Positions 20,927 to 31,092 of a stretch of 64,000 nt of DNA are shown here, piece after piece. Every line of letters begins with the position of its first letter. Within the stretch, counting starts at the first letter, position 1. The notes beneath the pieces were generated by a model. It was given only the letters and a program-made list of their open reading frames with translations. It was not told the DNA's origin and did not search any database. Position numbers and translations under genes: made by a program. The DNA is from Bdellovibrio sp. NC01 (lineage in GTDB: Bacteria; Bdellovibrionota; Bdellovibrionia; Bdellovibrionales; Bdellovibrionaceae), in assembly GCF_006874625.1 (NCBI RefSeq), contig NZ_CP030034.1, forward strand, positions 2,852,001-2,916,000, read 5' to 3'.

Positions 20927-21983
20927 TGGGCACCTCAAAACGTCCCTTCCAGAATTTGAAGGAATTGCGACGCTCACCAAGAACTAATTCGATCAAGGCG
21001 ATGAGGACTCCCAATAACAAGAAAGCTTGGAAGCGCTCATCGTATTGTGTTGCCATGGTTGTATCGAACTGCGTTTTTTCTAATTTATTAATATCTTCAA
21101 CTAGGTGTTTCGTTTGATCGCCACCGAAGGTCGCGAAATAGAAACTGCCTTTACCGGCTTCGGCCAACGCACGAAGGGCATCACCTTTAACTGTCGTGAT
21201 AACTGTTTCGCCACCACGATCTTTTTTATAACCTTTTAGGAAGCCCATGCCATCACGCTCTGGAATCGCGCCACCTTTTTCAGTGCCGTAAGCGACCGTG
21301 AAAATACGAATACCTTCATCAGTTAATTTCTTCGCTTCTTCCAGGGCTCCTGGTTCGTTGTCTTCACCGTCTGAAGCAATCAAGATCACACGTGTCACCT
21401 TCACAGTTTCATCCGTTGTCACACCACCACGATCAAATGCATCTTTCGCAGCAGCTAAAGCTTCTTTAAAGCTTGTCCCTTGCGATGAAACAGAGTTTGT
21501 GTCTAAAGAGTCCAAGTACATTTTGATGGAACCCGGATCGTTCGTAATTGGCGATAACAATGCCGCTGAACCAGCAAATGCCAACACACCGATTTTATTT
21601 CCAGGCATCATGTCGACCAAACGACTGAGTTCGGCTTTTGCTTGTGCCAAGCGCGATGGTTTAACATCTTCCGCCATCATACTGTCAGAAACGTCTACGG
21701 CGAAAATCAGCTCAACGCCTTCGCTCTTCACTTCGGTTTTACTTTGGCCCATTTGTGGGCGCGCTAAAGCTACGACAAAGAAGAACACGGCAAGAACTTG
21801 CAAGAATGTTTTCAAAGTCCGTTTCTTAGAAGAAACCGACGAAGAAAGAAACGGATAAAGGCGTGTGCCAATTGCCGCTTCCATACGTTTACGACTGCGC
21901 AAATCAAAGATGTAACCCAGAACGATAATAACTGGAATCACCCACAGATAGTTAAAGGCAGAAAGGTTTTCAAATCTAAACAT
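20919..21983 (-). CDS. batB: BatB, membrane von Willebrand factor A protein
   Basis: The ATG at 21983 overlaps the batA stop by one base (TAATG) with GGAGGG just upstream. The 354-residue product has N-terminal transmembrane helices (YLWVIPVIIVLGYIF and LQVLAVFFFVVALARP), a VWA domain with an intact MIDAS motif DVSDSMMAEDVKPSRL, a Thr (SSQGTSF) and Asp (ASDGEDNEPG) ligand, and a C-terminal helix (FQAFLLLGVLIALIELVLG). The LARPQ sequence before the VWA domain is shared with batA, showing that the two arose by duplication. Confidence 0.94.
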   Translation of the reverse strand: MFRFENLSAFNYLWVIPVIIVLGYIFDLRSRKRMEAAIGTRLYPFLSSSVSSKKRTLKTFLQVLAVFFFVVALARPQMGQSKTEVKSEGVELIFAVDVSDSMMAEDVKPSRLAQAKAELSRLVDMMPGNKIGVLAFAGSAALLSPITNDPGSIKMYLDSLDTNSVSSQGTSFKEALAAAKDAFDRGGVTTDETVKVTRVILIASDGEDNEPGALEEAKKLTDEGIRIFTVAYGTEKGGAIPERDGMGFLKGYKKDRGGETVITTVKGDALRALAEAGKGSFYFATFGGDQTKHLVEDINKLEKTQFDTTMATQYDERFQAFLLLGVLIALIELVLGERRNSFKFWKGRFEVPNA

Positions 21984-22993
21984 TATGGAACCCTCCTTAA
22001 CCAAGAACGACCCAAGATCAAGGCAGCCAAATAAAGGATGATTGCCATCACTAAATATGGTGGGAATTTTTCAGTGTAATTTGTAAACTTATTGATATCG
22101 ATCTTCGTTTTTTCTAACGAGTCGATGTCTTTAAAGATTCCAACCAACGAGTCTTCTTTTGAAGCACGATAGTATTTACCACCCGTATCTTTCGCCATAC
22201 GCGCCAAAAGATCTTCATTCACCGTGCTATCAAATGGCTGATAAGTTTTTACTTTCTGACCAAAGATATCGCGTGTGTAGATAGGAATTTTTGTTGGACC
22301 ATCTTTACCGATACCGATTGAATAAATCTTAATGCCGTAACCTTTAGCGATTTCCAGACCCGTTTCAGGATCGATAGTACCGCTATTGTTTTCCCCATCC
22401 GTCATGAAGATGACAACACGGCTTTTTGCTTGCGAGTCTTTCAAGCGGCCCGCCGCATTCGCAAGTGCGACACCTAATGCCGTACCATCTTTGATACGTG
22501 CTTGTTGTGCGGTTGTGATTTCGGCAACTCGTTGCAAGATCAATTGGTAATCTAAAGTTGGCGGAACCAGCGTAAATGATTCGCCGGCGAAGATCACTAA
22601 ACCAATACGGTCAGAACTACGACCTTCAATGAAACGTTTGATCGTTTCTTTTGCTGCTTCCAAACGATTTAAAGGTTTCATATCTTCGATCAACATACTG
22701 TCGGAAATATCCAGACAGATAACGATGTCGATACCTTCAACGTTCTTTTTAATTTTCGTATTCATTTCCTGCGGTCGTGCTAAGGCGATAATCGCAAAAA
22801 CAATCGCAAGGGCTTTCATTAATAGTGGCAGATGCATCAAACGCGTGCGTACACTTGGCGTCACTGACTTTAAGACTTCGATAGAACCAAACTGCAACGT
22901 CGGCGTTTTCTTTTTCTTACGCCACATCGTCCACACAAGAAGCAAAACTAAAGGAAGAATCAGCCAGAATGCCGCGGAAGAATGGAAAGTCAT
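21983..22993 (-). CDS. batA: BatA, membrane von Willebrand factor A protein
   Basis: A 336-residue protein with the same plan as BatB: two N-terminal membrane helices (FWLILPLVLLLVWTMW; LLMKALAIVFAIIALARP), a VWA domain with MIDAS DISDSMLIEDMKP, Thr in KDGTALG and Asp in FMTDGENNSG, and a C-terminal helix (YLVMAIILYLAALILG). The start overlaps the preceding gene by 4 bases (ATGA). BatA and BatB are thought to form a metal-dependent protein-binding complex at the cytoplasmic membrane facing the periplasm. Confidence 0.94.
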   Translation of the reverse strand: MTFHSSAAFWLILPLVLLLVWTMWRKKKKTPTLQFGSIEVLKSVTPSVRTRLMHLPLLMKALAIVFAIIALARPQEMNTKIKKNVEGIDIVICLDISDSMLIEDMKPLNRLEAAKETIKRFIEGRSSDRIGLVIFAGESFTLVPPTLDYQLILQRVAEITTAQQARIKDGTALGVALANAAGRLKDSQAKSRVVIFMTDGENNSGTIDPETGLEIAKGYGIKIYSIGIGKDGPTKIPIYTRDIFGQKVKTYQPFDSTVNEDLLARMAKDTGGKYYRASKEDSLVGIFKDIDSLEKTKIDINKFTNYTEKFPPYLVMAIILYLAALILGRSWLRRVP

Positions 22994-23898
22994 GACATGC
23001 TCTCCATTGTTTCAACTAAGTTTCTTGTGCGTTTTGAAAGATTCACGACGTCACTTGCGGTGACATTTTGTTTGTTTTCAAAGGCGTGCTGATATTCTTT
23101 GATCAAATCCTGCATGTCTTTGCCACATTCAGCATAGACTTTGCGATGACGTTTTTTGATGTCTTTGGCAATAAGGCGCGCGCTCCATTCCAAAGCAGGA
23201 ATTTGGTATTTGCGTGTGATATACAGACGCAACATGTGGCGCATTTCTTCCATCGCTTTAGAAATATCATCAGCCGTTGTTTCACCGCTGAAGAACGCTG
23301 GATTTGAACGCTGCACTTTACGCATGCTTTGATGGAATTGACTGATCGGCGACAAGGCCGAGTCATGTTCTTTCAAGCCTTCAATCATATTACGGCGTTG
23401 AATCACTCGTATCACCTTAAAGACGATACCTGCGATAATCGCCCCCAAAACGGCAATCAGAATCACCCAATAGATATGCGGCACTGAAAGTTCCGCAGGA
23501 CCGATCGGACCATACGGTTCAATCTTCGCTTGGGCTTGTTGGGCACCAGCGGCATCGACACCTTCTGGTTTTGGAATAGAAGTCTGCACGAAATATTCAA
23601 TGCGACCTAAACTGAACGTCTCAGTTCCATCCGTCATTTGCAAGTCAGGCCACTCAATGTTGCCGGCTTTGTAACCAGTAACAACAAACACCGCTTTTGA
23701 GGGCGAATCCATGCGTGCTTTTAAAAGCTTAATTAAATATTTCTGCTCAGCAGTTTCGACGAAATGCAATTTGTCGACTTGAAGATTTTTTGGAAACTCC
23801 CCTTCACAAGTCACAAGGGCCTCGCGACCAACGGTCATCTCGTTGTCCTTGAGCCCTTCTACTTTAGGAATTTCAAACTTACACTGAACTACTGCCAT
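22990..23898 (-). CDS. Bat-operon membrane protein (DUF4381/BatX-like position)
   Basis: A 302-residue protein encoded between the DUF58 and batA genes, overlapping both neighbours (TAATG and ATGA). The N-terminal ~130 residues form a beta sandwich (MTVGREALVTCEGEFPKNLQ), with no clear signal peptide at the start. One membrane helix lies near residue 150 (IYWVILIAVLGAIIAGIVFK). The cytoplasmic tail is basic and helical (YITRKYQIPALEWSARLIAK). This matches the unnamed gene found at the same place in many bat operons. Likely role: an accessory that couples VWA proteins to the AAA ATPase. The lack of an N-terminal signal is odd for a periplasmic sandwich; a start further upstream would overlap DUF58. 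Confidence 0.8.
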   Translation of the reverse strand: MAVVQCKFEIPKVEGLKDNEMTVGREALVTCEGEFPKNLQVDKLHFVETAEQKYLIKLLKARMDSPSKAVFVVTGYKAGNIEWPDLQMTDGTETFSLGRIEYFVQTSIPKPEGVDAAGAQQAQAKIEPYGPIGPAELSVPHIYWVILIAVLGAIIAGIVFKVIRVIQRRNMIEGLKEHDSALSPISQFHQSMRKVQRSNPAFFSGETTADDISKAMEEMRHMLRLYITRKYQIPALEWSARLIAKDIKKRHRKVYAECGKDMQDLIKEYQHAFENKQNVTASDVVNLSKRTRNLVETMESMS

Positions 23899-24767
23899 TA
23901 TTTTCTCTTCTTAAAGAACGCCACCAAAGGATCTACGTAATCCTCGCTGGATTTCACATCAACGCGTTCTACCTGCGACAAGCGCAAAAGTTTATCGCGT
24001 TGTTCTTTACGCTGTTGGACCGCATCTTCGTATTCCTGACGGAATGAAGGTGATGATGTATCGACCGTCAGAACTTCGCCGGTTTCGGCATCCTGAACTT
24101 CGATCACACCCATGCGTGGTAATGAAATTTCCGCAGCGTCATTCACGACACATGCAACCACGTCATGCTTACGTCCCAACAAACGCAAACTTTGTTCAAA
24201 GCCTTGATCCATAAAATCACTGAACACGAAAATCGTTGCGCGTTTTTTCAATGCACCCTGCATGAAACTTAAACCCGCAGAAATTTTCGTCTTATGACTT
24301 TTTGGCTGATAATAAAATAAATCACGAAGCAAACGGCGCACATGACCGCGACCTTTTTTCGGTGGCACGAAATGTTCAACTTGATCGCTGAACAATAACA
24401 AACCAATTTGGTCATTATTTTTCACGGCTGAAAAAGCCAGTAAAGCGGCAAGCTGAGTCATCACCTCGCCTTTAAAATAAGGACCCGTTCCGAAATCGGC
24501 AGAGCCACTGACGTCAACTGCAAGAATCAAAGTCAGTTCACGCTCTTCTTCGTATGTTTTGATATAAGGTTTTCCTGTGCGCGCAGTCAGCGGCCAAGAA
24601 ATCGAACGAATGTCGTCGCCCGCTACGTACTCCCTGAAATCAGCGAAAGTCATACCCTGACCTTTAAAGGCCGTATGGTATTCACCGGCAAAGAGATTGT
24701 TCACAAGCTTTCTTGTGTTGATCTCTAAGAGTTTAACTTTCTTTAAGACCTCAGGAGGTAAACTCAC
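23898..24767 (-). CDS. DUF58 family protein
   Basis: A 289-residue protein with a GTG start overlapping the moxR stop by one base (TAGTG), and GAGGTG upstream. It carries the DUF58 signature (YHTAFKGQGMTFADFREYV, GDDIRSISWPLTARTGKPYI) and a VWA-like fold with DVSGSADFG in place of the full MIDAS. DUF58 proteins are the constant partner of MoxR AAA ATPases and probably present a target to it. No membrane segment. Confidence 0.93.
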   Translation of the reverse strand: MSLPPEVLKKVKLLEINTRKLVNNLFAGEYHTAFKGQGMTFADFREYVAGDDIRSISWPLTARTGKPYIKTYEEERELTLILAVDVSGSADFGTGPYFKGEVMTQLAALLAFSAVKNNDQIGLLLFSDQVEHFVPPKKGRGHVRRLLRDLFYYQPKSHKTKISAGLSFMQGALKKRATIFVFSDFMDQGFEQSLRLLGRKHDVVACVVNDAAEISLPRMGVIEVQDAETGEVLTVDTSSPSFRQEYEDAVQQRKEQRDKLLRLSQVERVDVKSSEDYVDPLVAFFKKRK

Positions 24768-25759
24768 TACGGCACCTCAATTTGGCTCAAGATCTCTTTG
24801 ATCACGTCGTCTGACTTGATGTTTTCAGCTTCCGCTTCGTAAGTCAGAATCAAACGATGTCTCATCACGTGGTAGGCAATGGCTTTCACGTCTTCTGCTG
24901 TCACGTAACCGCGACCTTGCAAGAACGCATGCGCTTTCGCTGCTCTAAATAAGCAGATCGTGGCGCGCGGAGAACCGCCCACGTTGATCAAGTTTGCGAT
25001 ACGGCTTAGACCGTATTCCGCAGGCTTACGAGTCGCCATCACCAGTTCAACGATGTAGTTTTTGATTTTGTTATCAACATAAATCTGATCTGCACGAGCT
25101 GCTGCACGCAACAAATCTTCTTTTGAAATCACAGGATTCACGACAGGTTTTTGATCCGTGCCCATGCGATTTAAGATTTCAAGCTCTTCGCCTTTGTGTG
25201 GGTAAACCACATTGATCTTAAACATGAAACGGTCCATCTGTGCTTCAGGAAGTGGATACGTACCTTCTTGTTCAAGCGGATTTTGTGTCGCAAGAACCAA
25301 GAATGGATTCGCAAGTTTGTAAGACTCTTCACCGATTGTGACTTGTTTTTCTGCCATCGCCTCTAGCAAAGCTGATTGCACTTTTGCTGGAGCACGATTG
25401 ATCTCGTCGGCCAAAACGATGTTTGTGAAGATGGGACCTTTACGTGGCGCGAACTCGCCTGATTTTGGATTAAAGATCATCGTACCAATCAAATCCGTCG
25501 GTAAAAGATCGGGAGTAAATTGAATACGTTGGAAATCCAAAGAGATAGACTTACACACTGTCGAGATCGTCAGAGTTTTCGCTAAACCCGGAACACCTTC
25601 AAGCAGGATGTGACCGCCCGTCAACAACCCCATCATGATGCCTTCCACCATTTCTTTTTGGCCTACGATAACTTTGTTGATTTCAGCCATCATTTTTTCG
25701 ATGAATTGGCTTTCCTGCTTAATGGCAGCGTTCAGTGCCATGATATCAACTTCACTCAC
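24767..25759 (-). CDS. moxR: MoxR family AAA+ ATPase
   Basis: A 330-residue AAA+ chaperone that heads the bat operon, with a GTG start at 25759 and GGAGGAT upstream. Seen: Walker A GVPGLAKT (residues ~55-62), Walker B VLADEINRA, sensor 1 ATQNP, the arginine-finger region (PLPEAQMDRFMF) and the C-terminal lid ending in a long helix. MoxR ATPases are thought to insert metals into, or refold, VWA-domain partners; here those are BatA and BatB. The operon's promoter should lie in 25760-25970, which also serves the divergent HtpX-like gene. Confidence 0.95.
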   Translation of the reverse strand: MSEVDIMALNAAIKQESQFIEKMMAEINKVIVGQKEMVEGIMMGLLTGGHILLEGVPGLAKTLTISTVCKSISLDFQRIQFTPDLLPTDLIGTMIFNPKSGEFAPRKGPIFTNIVLADEINRAPAKVQSALLEAMAEKQVTIGEESYKLANPFLVLATQNPLEQEGTYPLPEAQMDRFMFKINVVYPHKGEELEILNRMGTDQKPVVNPVISKEDLLRAAARADQIYVDNKIKNYIVELVMATRKPAEYGLSRIANLINVGGSPRATICLFRAAKAHAFLQGRGYVTAEDVKAIAYHVMRHRLILTYEAEAENIKSDDVIKEILSQIEVP

Positions 25760-25970: not shown

Positions 25971-26783
25971 ATGCAGAACACTAGTACAAAAGTCTGGGTT
26001 TTTATTCTATCGAGTTCTTTGGCGTTTTTGGTGTTGGGTTACCAATTCGGTGAACGTCTGGGCCTGATGATCGGCTTCTTCTTCGCGCTTCTTTTAAACT
26101 TCATGGTGTTCTTTTACGGAGAAAGCCGCGTCCTTGCGAAACTCAATGCAAAACGTTTGAAGGGCCAAGACGCTTGGGGCGTTTTAAATTTGGTCGAACG
26201 CTTGTCTGCAGAACTGGGCGTGCCAGTTCCTGCCGTTTACTTGATTCCATCCCCTGCTGCGAATGCATTTGCAGTGGGTCACTCTTGGCGCCGTGGTGCT
26301 TTGGGCTTTACGCAGGGTTTGTTGCAAACATTGGAACCCGAAGAACTTGAAGCCGCTGTTGCCCATCAACTTTGTCACATTCGTCGTCTTGATACGTTTG
26401 CGTTCGGTGTCAGCAGTACGCTTGCGAACTCGGTTGTGGGTCTTGGTCAATTCTTGGATTCCTTCCTGCCGTATCGTTTGCAATTTTTTATGCCTCTTTT
26501 TTCACCATTAGGTTGGCTTATTATCAAAACGGTTGTGGGCGAAAAATCATTCTTTGAAAATGATTTGATGGCCTCGCAGCTTGTGGGTGATCGTCATAAA
26601 TTAGGCGAAGCCTTGTGGAGACTTGAAGGTCTTGCCCAAACAAAACCGCTTGTGATCCCCGCTTGTACTTCGCATCTGTTCATGGTGAACCCTGAAGGCA
26701 TCAAGCAAAGAAATTTATTTTTAAAATCTCATCCACCTATCGAGATTCGTATTCAGAAACTCATGGGTTATTATCCAATTTAG
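25971..26783 (+). CDS. HtpX/M48-like membrane protein with altered active site
   Basis: A 270-residue protein with two N-terminal membrane helices (about residues 8-25 and 30-48), then a cytoplasmic domain built like HtpX: ELGVPVPAVYLIPSPAANAF matches the family's conserved strand, LEPEELEAAVAHQLCHIRRLD is at the zinc site, and ENDLMASQL holds the downstream Glu. The zinc motif should be HExxH; here it is HQLCH (132-136), with the catalytic Glu replaced by Gln133. The codon is CAA, clearly read in sequence. The His ligands and third ligand E196 remain, so it may bind zinc but should not cut peptides. It is followed by DUF1844 and HtrA genes on the same strand, a membrane quality-control setting. 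Confidence 0.85.
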   Translation: MQNTSTKVWVFILSSSLAFLVLGYQFGERLGLMIGFFFALLLNFMVFFYGESRVLAKLNAKRLKGQDAWGVLNLVERLSAELGVPVPAVYLIPSPAANAFAVGHSWRRGALGFTQGLLQTLEPEELEAAVAHQLCHIRRLDTFAFGVSSTLANSVVGLGQFLDSFLPYRLQFFMPLFSPLGWLIIKTVVGEKSFFENDLMASQLVGDRHKLGEALWRLEGLAQTKPLVIPACTSHLFMVNPEGIKQRNLFLKSHPPIEIRIQKLMGYYPI

Positions 26784-26795
26784 TCGAGGTATAAA

Positions 26796-27044
26796 ATGCA
26801 GCAAAAAATGGAAGCCTCTATGTCCGTCCTTATCATGTCTATCGCTTCATCAGCCGTGATGGCGATGGGTCTTTCTCCTGATCCACAATCTGGAAAAGTA
26901 GAAAAAGATAAAGAGATGGCTCGCTTTAATATTGATCTTCTTTTGGTGCTTCAACAAAAGACCAAAGGAAATTTAACGAAAGATGAATCGCAGTTTTTAG
27001 AAAATTTGATTAGCGATCTGCAAATCAAATTCGTGTCCATTTAA
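26796..27044 (+). CDS. DUF1844 family protein
   Basis: An 82-residue protein with the DUF1844 pattern: a helical start, GLSPDPQSGKVEKDKEMA, then RFNIDLLLVLQQKTKGNLTK and a C-terminal helix. The function of the family is unknown; it is common in delta-type bacteria. It is encoded 12 bases after the HtpX-like gene with GAGGT upstream, and 30 bases before an HtrA-type protease, so the three are likely one transcript. Confidence 0.85.
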   Translation: MQQKMEASMSVLIMSIASSAVMAMGLSPDPQSGKVEKDKEMARFNIDLLLVLQQKTKGNLTKDESQFLENLISDLQIKFVSI

Positions 27045-27074: not shown

Positions 27075-28496
27075 ATGAAGAAGTTGTTATTTCTGATTCT
27101 AACGGTGGCCTTGACAGCGCAAGCACAGAACCTGCCAAAAGACGCACCCAAATTAAATCTCACGGCACCACTGCCGGCAAATTTGTTTGTTGAACTCGCG
27201 CGAGTGATCAATCCCGCAGTTGTTAATATCTCGACGGCTGCTATTCCAAAAAACAATCCCCGTATGCGCGATCCAATGATGGATATGCTTGAGCAGTTGT
27301 ATGGCATTCGCATGCAACCGCAGGCTCCGCAATCAATGAAGCCGCAGATGATGGGTTTAGGAACAGGTTTTATTATTCGTGAAGACGGTTTGATTGTGAC
27401 AAACAATCACGTGATCGCAGGTGCTGACCAAATCACGGTGCAACTTTCTGAAGGCTCAAAAGAGATTTACGATGCGACTCTTGTCGGCAGCGATGCACGC
27501 ACAGATATCGCGCTTATCAAAATCAATCCGAAAGGCAAAAAACTTCCTTACGCGGTTCTTGGTTCTTCCAAAGATCTTGAAGTTGGCGAATGGGTTGCAG
27601 CGTTCGGTAATCCATTCGGTCACGGTCACTCGATGACGAAAGGGATTATTTCTTCTAAAGCCCGCGACATCACAGAGATCAATAAAATTCCTCTGCTACA
27701 AACCGATGCCAGCATCAACCCTGGTAACTCGGGTGGTCCGCTGGTAAATACGAAGGGCCAAGTGATCGGTGTGAATTCTGCGATCGATGCACGCGCCCAA
27801 GGTATCGGCTTTGCGATCCCTATCGACGAAGTGAAAGCGATCATTCCGATCTTAGAAACCAAAGGTCGTATCGCTCGCGGTTACATCGGTACGGCACTAG
27901 GCGACCTTGATGGTGACGCGGCTGAATACTTGGGACTTGGCGACACTCGTGGCGCGGTGATTGTGCAACTAGATCCAAAAGGCCCTGCTGCAAAAGCGGG
28001 AATCAAAATGTACGACATCATCACGGAATTTAACGGTCGTGCGGTGACAAATTCTTTGGAACTGCAAGATGCGGTTGGTGATGCGACGATTGGTAAATCG
28101 GTGCCAGTAAAAATCCTGCGCAATCGTAAACCCATGACAGTTAGCATGCTGGTCACTGAACGTCCGGAAGATAAAGTCGCTAAGAAAACTGTGACGAAAA
28201 AATATGAAGGGCAAAAAGCTCCGTTCAATTTAGGATTTACAGTGTCTGATCCAAACGATCAAATTCGTGCGGAAATGGGTTTGCCTGAAGACATGAAACA
28301 ACCCGTAGTGATTGATCTCGAGCGTGGCTCTGCGGCGGTTCGTTCAGGCTTACAGGCTGGTGACGTGATCTTGGATGTGAACAAAACCAATGTTGAATCT
28401 TCGAAAGATGTTTTGAAGGGTTTGAAAAAGGGCGCGAACACTTTGCGTATCGCTCGCAATGCGCGCATTCAAATCATCAATATTGAGACTCCGTAA
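27075..28496 (+). CDS. HtrA/DegP family periplasmic serine protease
   Basis: A 473-residue S1C protease. Signal peptide MKKLLFLILTVALTAQAQ, then a trypsin-like domain with the triad H112 (TNNHVIAG), D144 (ARTDIAL) and S219 (INPGNSGGP), then two PDZ domains (about residues 260-355, GYIGTALGDLD ... ; and 385-470, LGFTVSDPNDQIR ...). It degrades misfolded periplasmic proteins. The variable loop between residues 55 and 92 is Met/Pro/Gln-rich, as in loop LA of DegP. No name beyond the family is assigned because DegP, DegQ and MucD cannot be told apart here. A strong terminator follows. Confidence 0.95.
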   Translation: MKKLLFLILTVALTAQAQNLPKDAPKLNLTAPLPANLFVELARVINPAVVNISTAAIPKNNPRMRDPMMDMLEQLYGIRMQPQAPQSMKPQMMGLGTGFIIREDGLIVTNNHVIAGADQITVQLSEGSKEIYDATLVGSDARTDIALIKINPKGKKLPYAVLGSSKDLEVGEWVAAFGNPFGHGHSMTKGIISSKARDITEINKIPLLQTDASINPGNSGGPLVNTKGQVIGVNSAIDARAQGIGFAIPIDEVKAIIPILETKGRIARGYIGTALGDLDGDAAEYLGLGDTRGAVIVQLDPKGPAAKAGIKMYDIITEFNGRAVTNSLELQDAVGDATIGKSVPVKILRNRKPMTVSMLVTERPEDKVAKKTVTKKYEGQKAPFNLGFTVSDPNDQIRAEMGLPEDMKQPVVIDLERGSAAVRSGLQAGDVILDVNKTNVESSKDVLKGLKKGANTLRIARNARIQIINIETP

Positions 28497-28523
28497 GCGC
28501 ATCTAAAATTTTCATTTAAGACT

Positions 28524-28555
28524 TAAAAAGCCAAGCTCCCCGCTTGGCTTTTTAA
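28524..28555. terminator. Bidirectional intrinsic terminator after the HtrA gene
   Basis: AAAAGCCAAGC and GCTTGGCTTTTT form an 11-bp stem around a 5-base loop, with T-runs on both strands. It ends the HtrA gene on the + strand, and could end a reverse-strand transcript covering 28556-28790. Confidence 0.92.
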
Positions 28556-29323: not shown

Positions 29324-29469
29324 ATTGCTAGAGCTGTAATTCAGTTTGGGTATTTCTTTCCTTGGTCCCAGGTATTTCTGCTCACATTTCCTTAGAAAGC
29401 CTCAAGTCCTCTAAATTTGCTGGGAATTTACCGTTAAGATGGCTAAATTGCCGGGCATTGAGGTCACAT

Positions 29470-31092
29470 ATGAAAACCTGGATTGCCTTAAGCTTAACGC
29501 TGCTTTCTTCACTCTCTTTGGCGGCGACAAAAACTTATTCTGATAAAGAGTTCGCCGATGCGAGCCGTGATTTTTTATTCAGTGATTTTGGTTCGATCAA
29601 TCAACACTCATTAGCATCAAATTCAAATTCGATTCCGAAACAAGTAGCGATGACAGCTCTGGTGATGGAAGGCCGTCGTAAGGGTTGGATTGGCGAATAC
29701 AGCCAAGACTATAAAGCCGTGCTTGCGCGTTTTGGCTTTTATACTCCGTCAGTGGTGTTGAATGCGCCGGTCAGTATGAAGGCTGATTTCAAATCGTTAC
29801 CGATGGGTATGACTGAGCGTGAAATTGAAATGGGTCTTGGCATTCGTATAACGGCTGTGAATATCACGTGCGCCGTTTGTCACGCGGGTCACTTGTACGA
29901 TGAAAAAGGTCAGGCGACTTCACAAGCGTGGATGGGCCTGCCGAATACTTCAATCAACATGGAAGGCTATTCGCAAGCTTTGTATCAAGGCATGCGCATT
30001 ATCTCTAACAACATGAGTGGCACATTTCGTTTAATGACGAATATGTTCCCTGAAATGACTTTCAAAGAAAGAACTGTCTATAAGCTTGCGGTATTTCCGC
30101 GCGTGAAAAAAGCCGTGCGCAATATGGAAGATCTTTATAAGCAAGCAGTTCCTTTCAGCAACGGTGGCCCGGGTCTTACGAACGGTGTTGCCGCACTGAA
30201 GATGCAATTGGGCATGCTTGATATGTCGAAGGTTCAACCGGAATTTGGTTTCACTTCGATTCCGTCATTGGGCGATCGTTATTTAAGAACTTCTTTGTTG
30301 TGGGATGGTGTTTATGCGTCCCCGAAAATGGATCGTAATCACGAAAAATCATCGTGGAATGATGAAGACGAAAACTTCATCAATGCGGTGGCAGCGTTGT
30401 TCACGATTCCGACGATGGGTCAAAGTACTGACGGTGCGCTTGCGAATATTCCGCGTGTGCAAAAAGCTTTAAGTGTTGTATTTAACAAATACGAAGCACC
30501 TGCTTACCCTGGTGAAATCGATATTGAAAAAGCAACTCGTGGCTCTGTGGTTTTTGAAAACAACTGTACAAAATGTCATGGCACTTACGAGTGGCAAGGT
30601 CAGCGTCCTAAGTTGGTCAGCTATCCAAACCGCATGGTTTCACAAGAGAACATGGGCACAGATCCTTTGCGCTGGCAGGCTGTGACCGACAAGTTTGCAG
30701 AGCAATTTAACAAGTCATCGTTGGCGAAAGCAGCGATCATCGTGAAAGCGAATGGTTATATTGCGCCGATTTTGAATTCTTTGTGGGCGACGGCTCCGTA
30801 CCTGCATAACGGTTCGGTCCCGACATTGTGGCATATGCTTCACCCTGAACAGCGTCCAACGAAGTTCATGGTCGGCGGTCATAATCTAGATTTAGAAAAA
30901 GTCGGCGTGAAGTTAGTTTTGAATGAAACGACGGGCGTGTGGGAGTATCCAAGCGACGTGAAGCCGTTTTCTCAACCCGTGGTTTACGACACGACGAAGC
31001 CAGGCTTAAGTAATGCGGGTCATACCCGTCCATTTGCGAAATTAAGCGAAGACGAAAAATCCGACCTGCTAGAATACCTAAAACTGCTGTAA
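29470..31092 (+). CDS. Secreted di-haem cytochrome c
   Basis: The frame opens at 29362, but the ATG at 29470 has GAGGT 5 bases upstream and a signal peptide (MKTWIALSLTLLSSLSLAA), giving 540 residues. Two haem-attachment motifs are visible: CAVCH (in VNITCAVCHAGH) and CTKCH (in NNCTKCHGTYEW). The segment PYLHNGSVPTLWHML is the hallmark of the large di-haem cytochromes related to cytochrome c peroxidase, RoxA and similar oxidoreductases, where the His and Pro-Thr region line the active haem. Substrate unknown; electron transfer or peroxidase-type chemistry in the periplasm is likely. Monocistronic, with a terminator starting in its stop codon. Confidence 0.88.
   Translation: MKTWIALSLTLLSSLSLAATKTYSDKEFADASRDFLFSDFGSINQHSLASNSNSIPKQVAMTALVMEGRRKGWIGEYSQDYKAVLARFGFYTPSVVLNAPVSMKADFKSLPMGMTEREIEMGLGIRITAVNITCAVCHAGHLYDEKGQATSQAWMGLPNTSINMEGYSQALYQGMRIISNNMSGTFRLMTNMFPEMTFKERTVYKLAVFPRVKKAVRNMEDLYKQAVPFSNGGPGLTNGVAALKMQLGMLDMSKVQPEFGFTSIPSLGDRYLRTSLLWDGVYASPKMDRNHEKSSWNDEDENFINAVAALFTIPTMGQSTDGALANIPRVQKALSVVFNKYEAPAYPGEIDIEKATRGSVVFENNCTKCHGTYEWQGQRPKLVSYPNRMVSQENMGTDPLRWQAVTDKFAEQFNKSSLAKAAIIVKANGYIAPILNSLWATAPYLHNGSVPTLWHMLHPEQRPTKFMVGGHNLDLEKVGVKLVLNETTGVWEYPSDVKPFSQPVVYDTTKPGLSNAGHTRPFAKLSEDEKSDLLEYLKLL

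Follow-up and report, generated by a model that had tools for sequence, protein, structure and literature searches.

A predicted HtpX-type pseudoprotease encoded with DUF1844 and HtrA-type proteins across the order of Bdellovibrio

The substrates of HtpX, and any function that it has apart from catalysis, are poorly understood. For another protease of the M48 family, the E-to-Q variant BepA(E137Q) was found to be protease-dead with partial chaperone-like activity left (PMC8423444), and outside this family the rhomboid YqgP acts as an adaptor of FtsH independently of its own proteolysis (PMC7231995). In the freely accessible literature we found no description of the protein reported here or of any bacterial HtpX pseudoprotease; searches combining HtpX with Bdellovibrio returned nothing relevant, those combining pseudoprotease with M48 returned other organisms only, and those for DUF1844 returned a single passing mention. 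The main text of a Bdellovibrio Tn-seq paper mentions neither HtpX nor M48, and a term search of the available text of a review of inactive metallopeptidases (PMC11266112) yielded no occurrence of M48, HtpX or Ste24.

The window analysed here is the whole stretch of 64,000 nucleotides from Bdellovibrio sp. NC01, a member of a genus of predatory bacteria, and all positions are counted from its first letter. The gene under study and its surroundings comprise the following features.

21983..22993, minus strand: vWA (BatA-like) membrane protein of the divergent cluster, named by sequence and gene order
23898..24767, minus strand: DUF58-like protein of the divergent cluster, named by sequence and gene order
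24767..25759, minus strand: MoxR AAA ATPase, the divergent neighbour, beginning a MoxR-DUF58-vWA (Bat-like) cluster (Pfam and synteny)
25971..26783, plus strand: predicted HtpX-type (M48) pseudoprotease, 270 aa, ATG start (open reading frame; Pfam Peptidase_M48, 57 bits against a cut-off of 20.3; order-wide orthologues)
25980..26126, plus strand: N-terminal transmembrane hairpin, aa 4-52, with motifs TKVWxF and GERxGL (hydropathy; AF2 helices 4-25 and 29-57)
26364..26378, plus strand: HQLCH, a degenerate HExxH, aa 132-136 (sequence)
26397..26540, plus strand: second (weakened) membrane hairpin, aa 143-190 (AF2 helices 143-163 and 173-188; hydropathy)
26550..26552, plus strand: codon of Phe194, at the position of the third zinc ligand Glu (alignment with REFRAD/REYMAD of active HtpX)
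26562..26564, plus strand: codon of Asp198, invariant in 107/107 orthologues despite loss of the zinc site (orthologue alignment)
26748..26750, plus strand: codon of Arg260 in the HPxxxxR motif, R in 103/107 orthologues with a gap in the other four
26796..27044, plus strand: small DUF1844 protein, 82 aa (Pfam, 90 bits)
27075..28496, plus strand: HtrA/DegP-type serine protease with two PDZ domains and triad motifs NNHVIAG, DIALIKI and GNSGGP
28523..28555, plus strand: terminator-like hairpin 3' of the three-gene unit (consensus match only)

The DUF1844 gene begins 12 bp past the pseudoprotease stop and is separated from the HtrA gene by 30 bp, and Pfam and NCBIfam matches bear out the identity of both neighbours as given in an earlier, sequence-only reading of this DNA. 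The arrangement is nearly universal in the order: vWA, DUF58 and MoxR genes lie on one strand and, divergently, the genes of the pseudoprotease, DUF1844 and HtrA on the other. A promoter scan of the region gave fewer matches than shuffled sequence did. Downstream of the HtrA region, the window contains a 576-aa open reading frame (29362-31092) with CXXCH motifs and a TTG start, the true start probably lying later; by sequence its product resembles a cytochrome c peroxidase-type protein.

The product of 25971-26783 has the M48/HtpX fold and lineage marks, namely the M48 profile match, the N-terminal helix pair and the second hairpin, but lacks those of an active zinc protease: there is no HExxH Glu (HQLCH, in the context AHQLCHIRRLD) and no Glu at the third-ligand position (Phe194). 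NCBIfam HtpX models score at most 142 bits over aa 7-265, under every model's equivalog cut-off. The sequence-only reading had rightly seen Gln in place of the catalytic Glu, but its statement that the downstream Glu remains was mistaken: the ligand position is Phe194 in 24/24 Bdellovibrio genomes, and Glu196, two residues later, is not a ligand. It had also described the helices as reduced to two at the N-terminus; that pair is present, but a second hairpin (~aa 143-190) is still predicted, less hydrophobic (hydropathy peak ~1.5 versus 1.7-2.4 in active relatives). An AF2 model of the protein was weak (pLDDT 60, input limited to six sequences); Foldseek with this model gave no match at E < 0.001, M48 entries taking ranks 1-4, and VIA-align of the same low-confidence model placed M48 chains at the top (ZMPSTE24, Z 10.5; Ste24p, 10.1; BepA, 9.0).

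A profile built from 29 orthologues was searched in 141 order genomes and 241 genomes from the phylum, loci were fetched, and the third-ligand position was set by alignment to the conventional HtpX of the same genome (L006, REFRAD) and to active orthologues (REYMAD). Within the genus, Gln133 is present in all 24 genomes (codon CAA in 20, CAG in 4), and Glu in none. A sequencing error or recent mutation, which the sequence-only reading had linked to homologues mostly carrying Glu, is ruled out by this conservation through both codons. Two of the three zinc ligands are retained in 23/24 genomes of the genus, and both His likewise in 23/24; other genera of the family mostly retain one or zero, and orthologues from other families of the order have zero in 44 of 51 cases. 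Across the order the site is not intact in 106/107 orthologues, with all three ligands absent in 53, in agreement with the earlier suggestion of a catalytically dead M48 protein, here with both the catalytic Glu and the third zinc ligand lost. One orthologue from a close Bdellovibrio relative (L037; L004 is of the same kind) reads YQLCQ and so has neither His ligand, yet its remainder is 72% identical, which shows that the His ligands are dispensable. Glu196 is present throughout the genus (24/24) and is Q, K, R or A elsewhere; as a substitute ligand it is ruled out by this replacement and by its retention in the YQLCQ orthologue without both His, which indicates that it is not kept for zinc. 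Invariant Asp198, together with near-invariant Arg260, Gly65, Asp67 and Glu125 (R29 and G31 are also near-invariant in the order), indicates that the frame of the fold was kept while the metal centre was erased. Pfam M48 recognises just 18 of the 29 profile orthologues, so a 'hypothetical' annotation is to be expected for many orthologues.

In outgroup families of the phylum (L122-L131, L141), the order HtpX-like gene, DUF1844, HtrA was found in nearly every locus that was long enough, without MoxR adjacent, and the encoded HtpX-like proteins carry an intact HExxH (AHELSH type) with REYxAD or REFxAD, one variant (L130) having KDFEAD. In a tree, the proteins of the Bdellovibrio order form one clade (100/98) apart from the active outgroup proteins; with an active enzyme in the same operon of the outgroup, descent from an active enzyme is directly visible. 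Synteny and the tree establish orthology with these proteins, so that in this order the once active protease of the operon has been stripped of its catalytic centre while the gene and the operon were retained. The sole order orthologue with a complete zinc site (L095, genome G090; HEMAH...SEYEAD) lies in the same operon and is a natural active comparator. It is nested in the order clade in the full tree, and the reduced tree requires two changes; a single loss with L095 branching first was not rejected (AU test, p 0.39). Tyr, the residue most often seen at position 194 beyond the genus, fits a single loss of the third ligand in an ancestor; the nested place of L095 and the differing surviving residues would suggest that catalysis was lost more than once independently.

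Four of the dead relatives found in other families, described next, fall within the order clade on a long branch. Dead HtpX-like relatives with a C-terminal HLFLxxP motif were observed in other families of the phylum (f12, f23), located outside a DUF1844-HtrA operon (L132, 3959-4969; L133, L134, L136 and L145); the gene next after that of L132 encodes a ZIP zinc transporter. A further family of the phylum has a 250-aa HtpX-like protein with zero zinc ligands (L138, 3839-4591), whose gene is flanked by those of a type II/IV secretion ATPase and a ClpA-like protein in a locus that also contains a DUF1844-like match.

Other M48 proteins with intact motifs are encoded in the same genome as the pseudoprotease: a conventional HtpX (L006, HEIAH...REFRAD) and a BepA-like lipoprotein (L007, HEIAH). 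A 495-aa membrane protein of this genome (L009, 751-2238) has an internal M48 domain with HEFGH and appears active by sequence. L006-type HtpX is present in 99/103 near-complete genomes of the order, and four near-complete genomes whose operon copy is dead (G020, G068, G133, G134) yielded none at the threshold used. Nor was it detected in ten outgroup genomes whose operon copy is active (G141, G143, G144, G152, G158, G163, G165, G177, G185 and G279), several of which are incomplete assemblies and whose species are not independent; an active operon copy and an L006-type HtpX occur together in three genomes (G212, G227, G090). This distribution, uncorrected for phylogeny and with exceptions, suggests that catalysis by the operon copy became redundant through the second HtpX. 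Catalysis was probably taken over by the conventional, intact HtpX elsewhere in the genome.

Judged from its sequence, the product of 25971-26783 is very probably a true pseudoprotease; having no general base and at most two zinc ligands, it is very unlikely to cleave proteins by the M48 mechanism. By analogy with precedent and from synteny, we lean towards a role in envelope quality control as a non-catalytic membrane adaptor, holdase or regulator. With a second HtpX present, catalysis by the operon copy would be dispensable and selection would retain the non-catalytic part, that is, a two-hairpin membrane anchor with a cytoplasmic M48 fold that may bind unfolded or mis-inserted membrane segments. 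In that case the pseudoprotease could hold substrates as an adaptor, or serve as an allosteric regulator, and direct clients to HtrA on the periplasmic side or to FtsH or active HtpX on the cytoplasmic side, the DUF1844 protein probably acting together with it. HtrA acts in the periplasm and the HtpX domain is cytoplasmic; a direct handover between them is therefore not obvious, and the partner could be FtsH or active HtpX.

An alternative interpretation is that the Bdellovibrio protein is still a metalloprotease in which Gln or another residue assists and a displaced ligand, Glu196, completes the zinc site. The retention of both His and of Glu196 in the genus would agree with this, but we consider it extremely improbable because the true ligand position is Phe or Tyr, nearly all relatives across the order lose further ligands, and the YQLCQ orthologue keeps Glu196 in the absence of both His. 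Alternatively, the gene could be decaying, surviving by chance or on its way to being lost since the second HtpX arrived. Protein divergence is fast between families, and the position is eroded or empty in about ten genomes overall, including loci in which the open reading frame between MoxR and DUF1844 is unrecognisable to the profile (L168, L169, L171, L174, L176) or in which there is none (L172, L173, L175), so the function of the pseudoprotease is not indispensable. Against decay, the gene is intact in 24/24 genomes of the genus and in most of the order, the non-catalytic residues G65, D67, E125, D198 and R260 are conserved, and dN/dS is low (median 0.045, maximum 0.148; 28 usable genus pairs), as low over the former active site (aa 121-200) and the C-terminus as elsewhere, which marks a protein under strong purifying selection; for Bdellovibrio we disfavour decay as highly improbable.

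Two further interpretations accept a selected, inactive protein and differ in what it serves. It might be a regulator or dominant-negative partner of the active HtpX (L006) alone, through hetero-oligomers or competition for substrate, with HtrA uninvolved. Such an arrangement would be in keeping with the near-universal presence of intact HtpX in the order and with the frequent regulation of active cousins by pseudoenzymes described in the available text of the metallopeptidase review (PMC11266112), but we regard it as unlikely because the gene keeps company with DUF1844 and HtrA rather than with active HtpX, and because the operon dates back to a time when this protein was still active and the only HtpX. 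Nor do we expect a new function outside proteolysis and quality control, for example as a structural membrane partner of DUF1844 or of the MoxR-DUF58-vWA cluster, which seems quite improbable. This cluster adjoins the operon in the order and not in the active-copy outgroups, so that one and the same clade shows both the new neighbourhood and the lost catalysis; however, the linkage of DUF1844 with HtrA is older, and the MoxR cluster is divergently transcribed.

Returning to the adaptor, holdase or regulator role in envelope quality control, a broader proposal, which we offer only tentatively, is that HtpX-DUF1844-HtrA constitutes a module of envelope quality control that has gone unrecognised; the ancestral role of the M48 protein in it would have been partly non-catalytic and only that part kept order-wide after a second HtpX was present. 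If true, HtpX would here have had its protease function parted from its adaptor function naturally and throughout an order. A dead HtpX in an HtrA operon throughout an order would indicate that part of the job of the HtpX scaffold needs no proteolysis, and the operon names DUF1844 and HtrA as candidate partners. The active outgroup orthologue and the dead copy also provide a before-and-after pair for the change of a membrane protease into a pseudoprotease.

Compared with known systems, the protein is closest in build to HtpX (MEROPS M48B), with which it shares two N-terminal helices, the M48 domain, a second hairpin after the HExxH helix, Asp198 and HPxxxxR, but from which it differs in lacking the catalytic Glu and the third zinc ligand and in scoring under the NCBIfam HtpX cut-offs. 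With the operon-type HtpX of the outgroups it has in common a C-terminal HLFxVNP. BepA (YfgC) shares the M48 fold but is periplasmic, lacks the HtpX membrane hairpins and is active in its natural form. Other inactive metallopeptidase homologues, in the available text of their review (PMC11266112), resemble it in having lost the metal centre while retaining the fold. YqgP and rhomboid pseudoproteases such as Derlins offer the parallel of a membrane-protease scaffold used as a non-catalytic adaptor for another protease, although theirs is the serine rhomboid fold, which is unrelated to M48.
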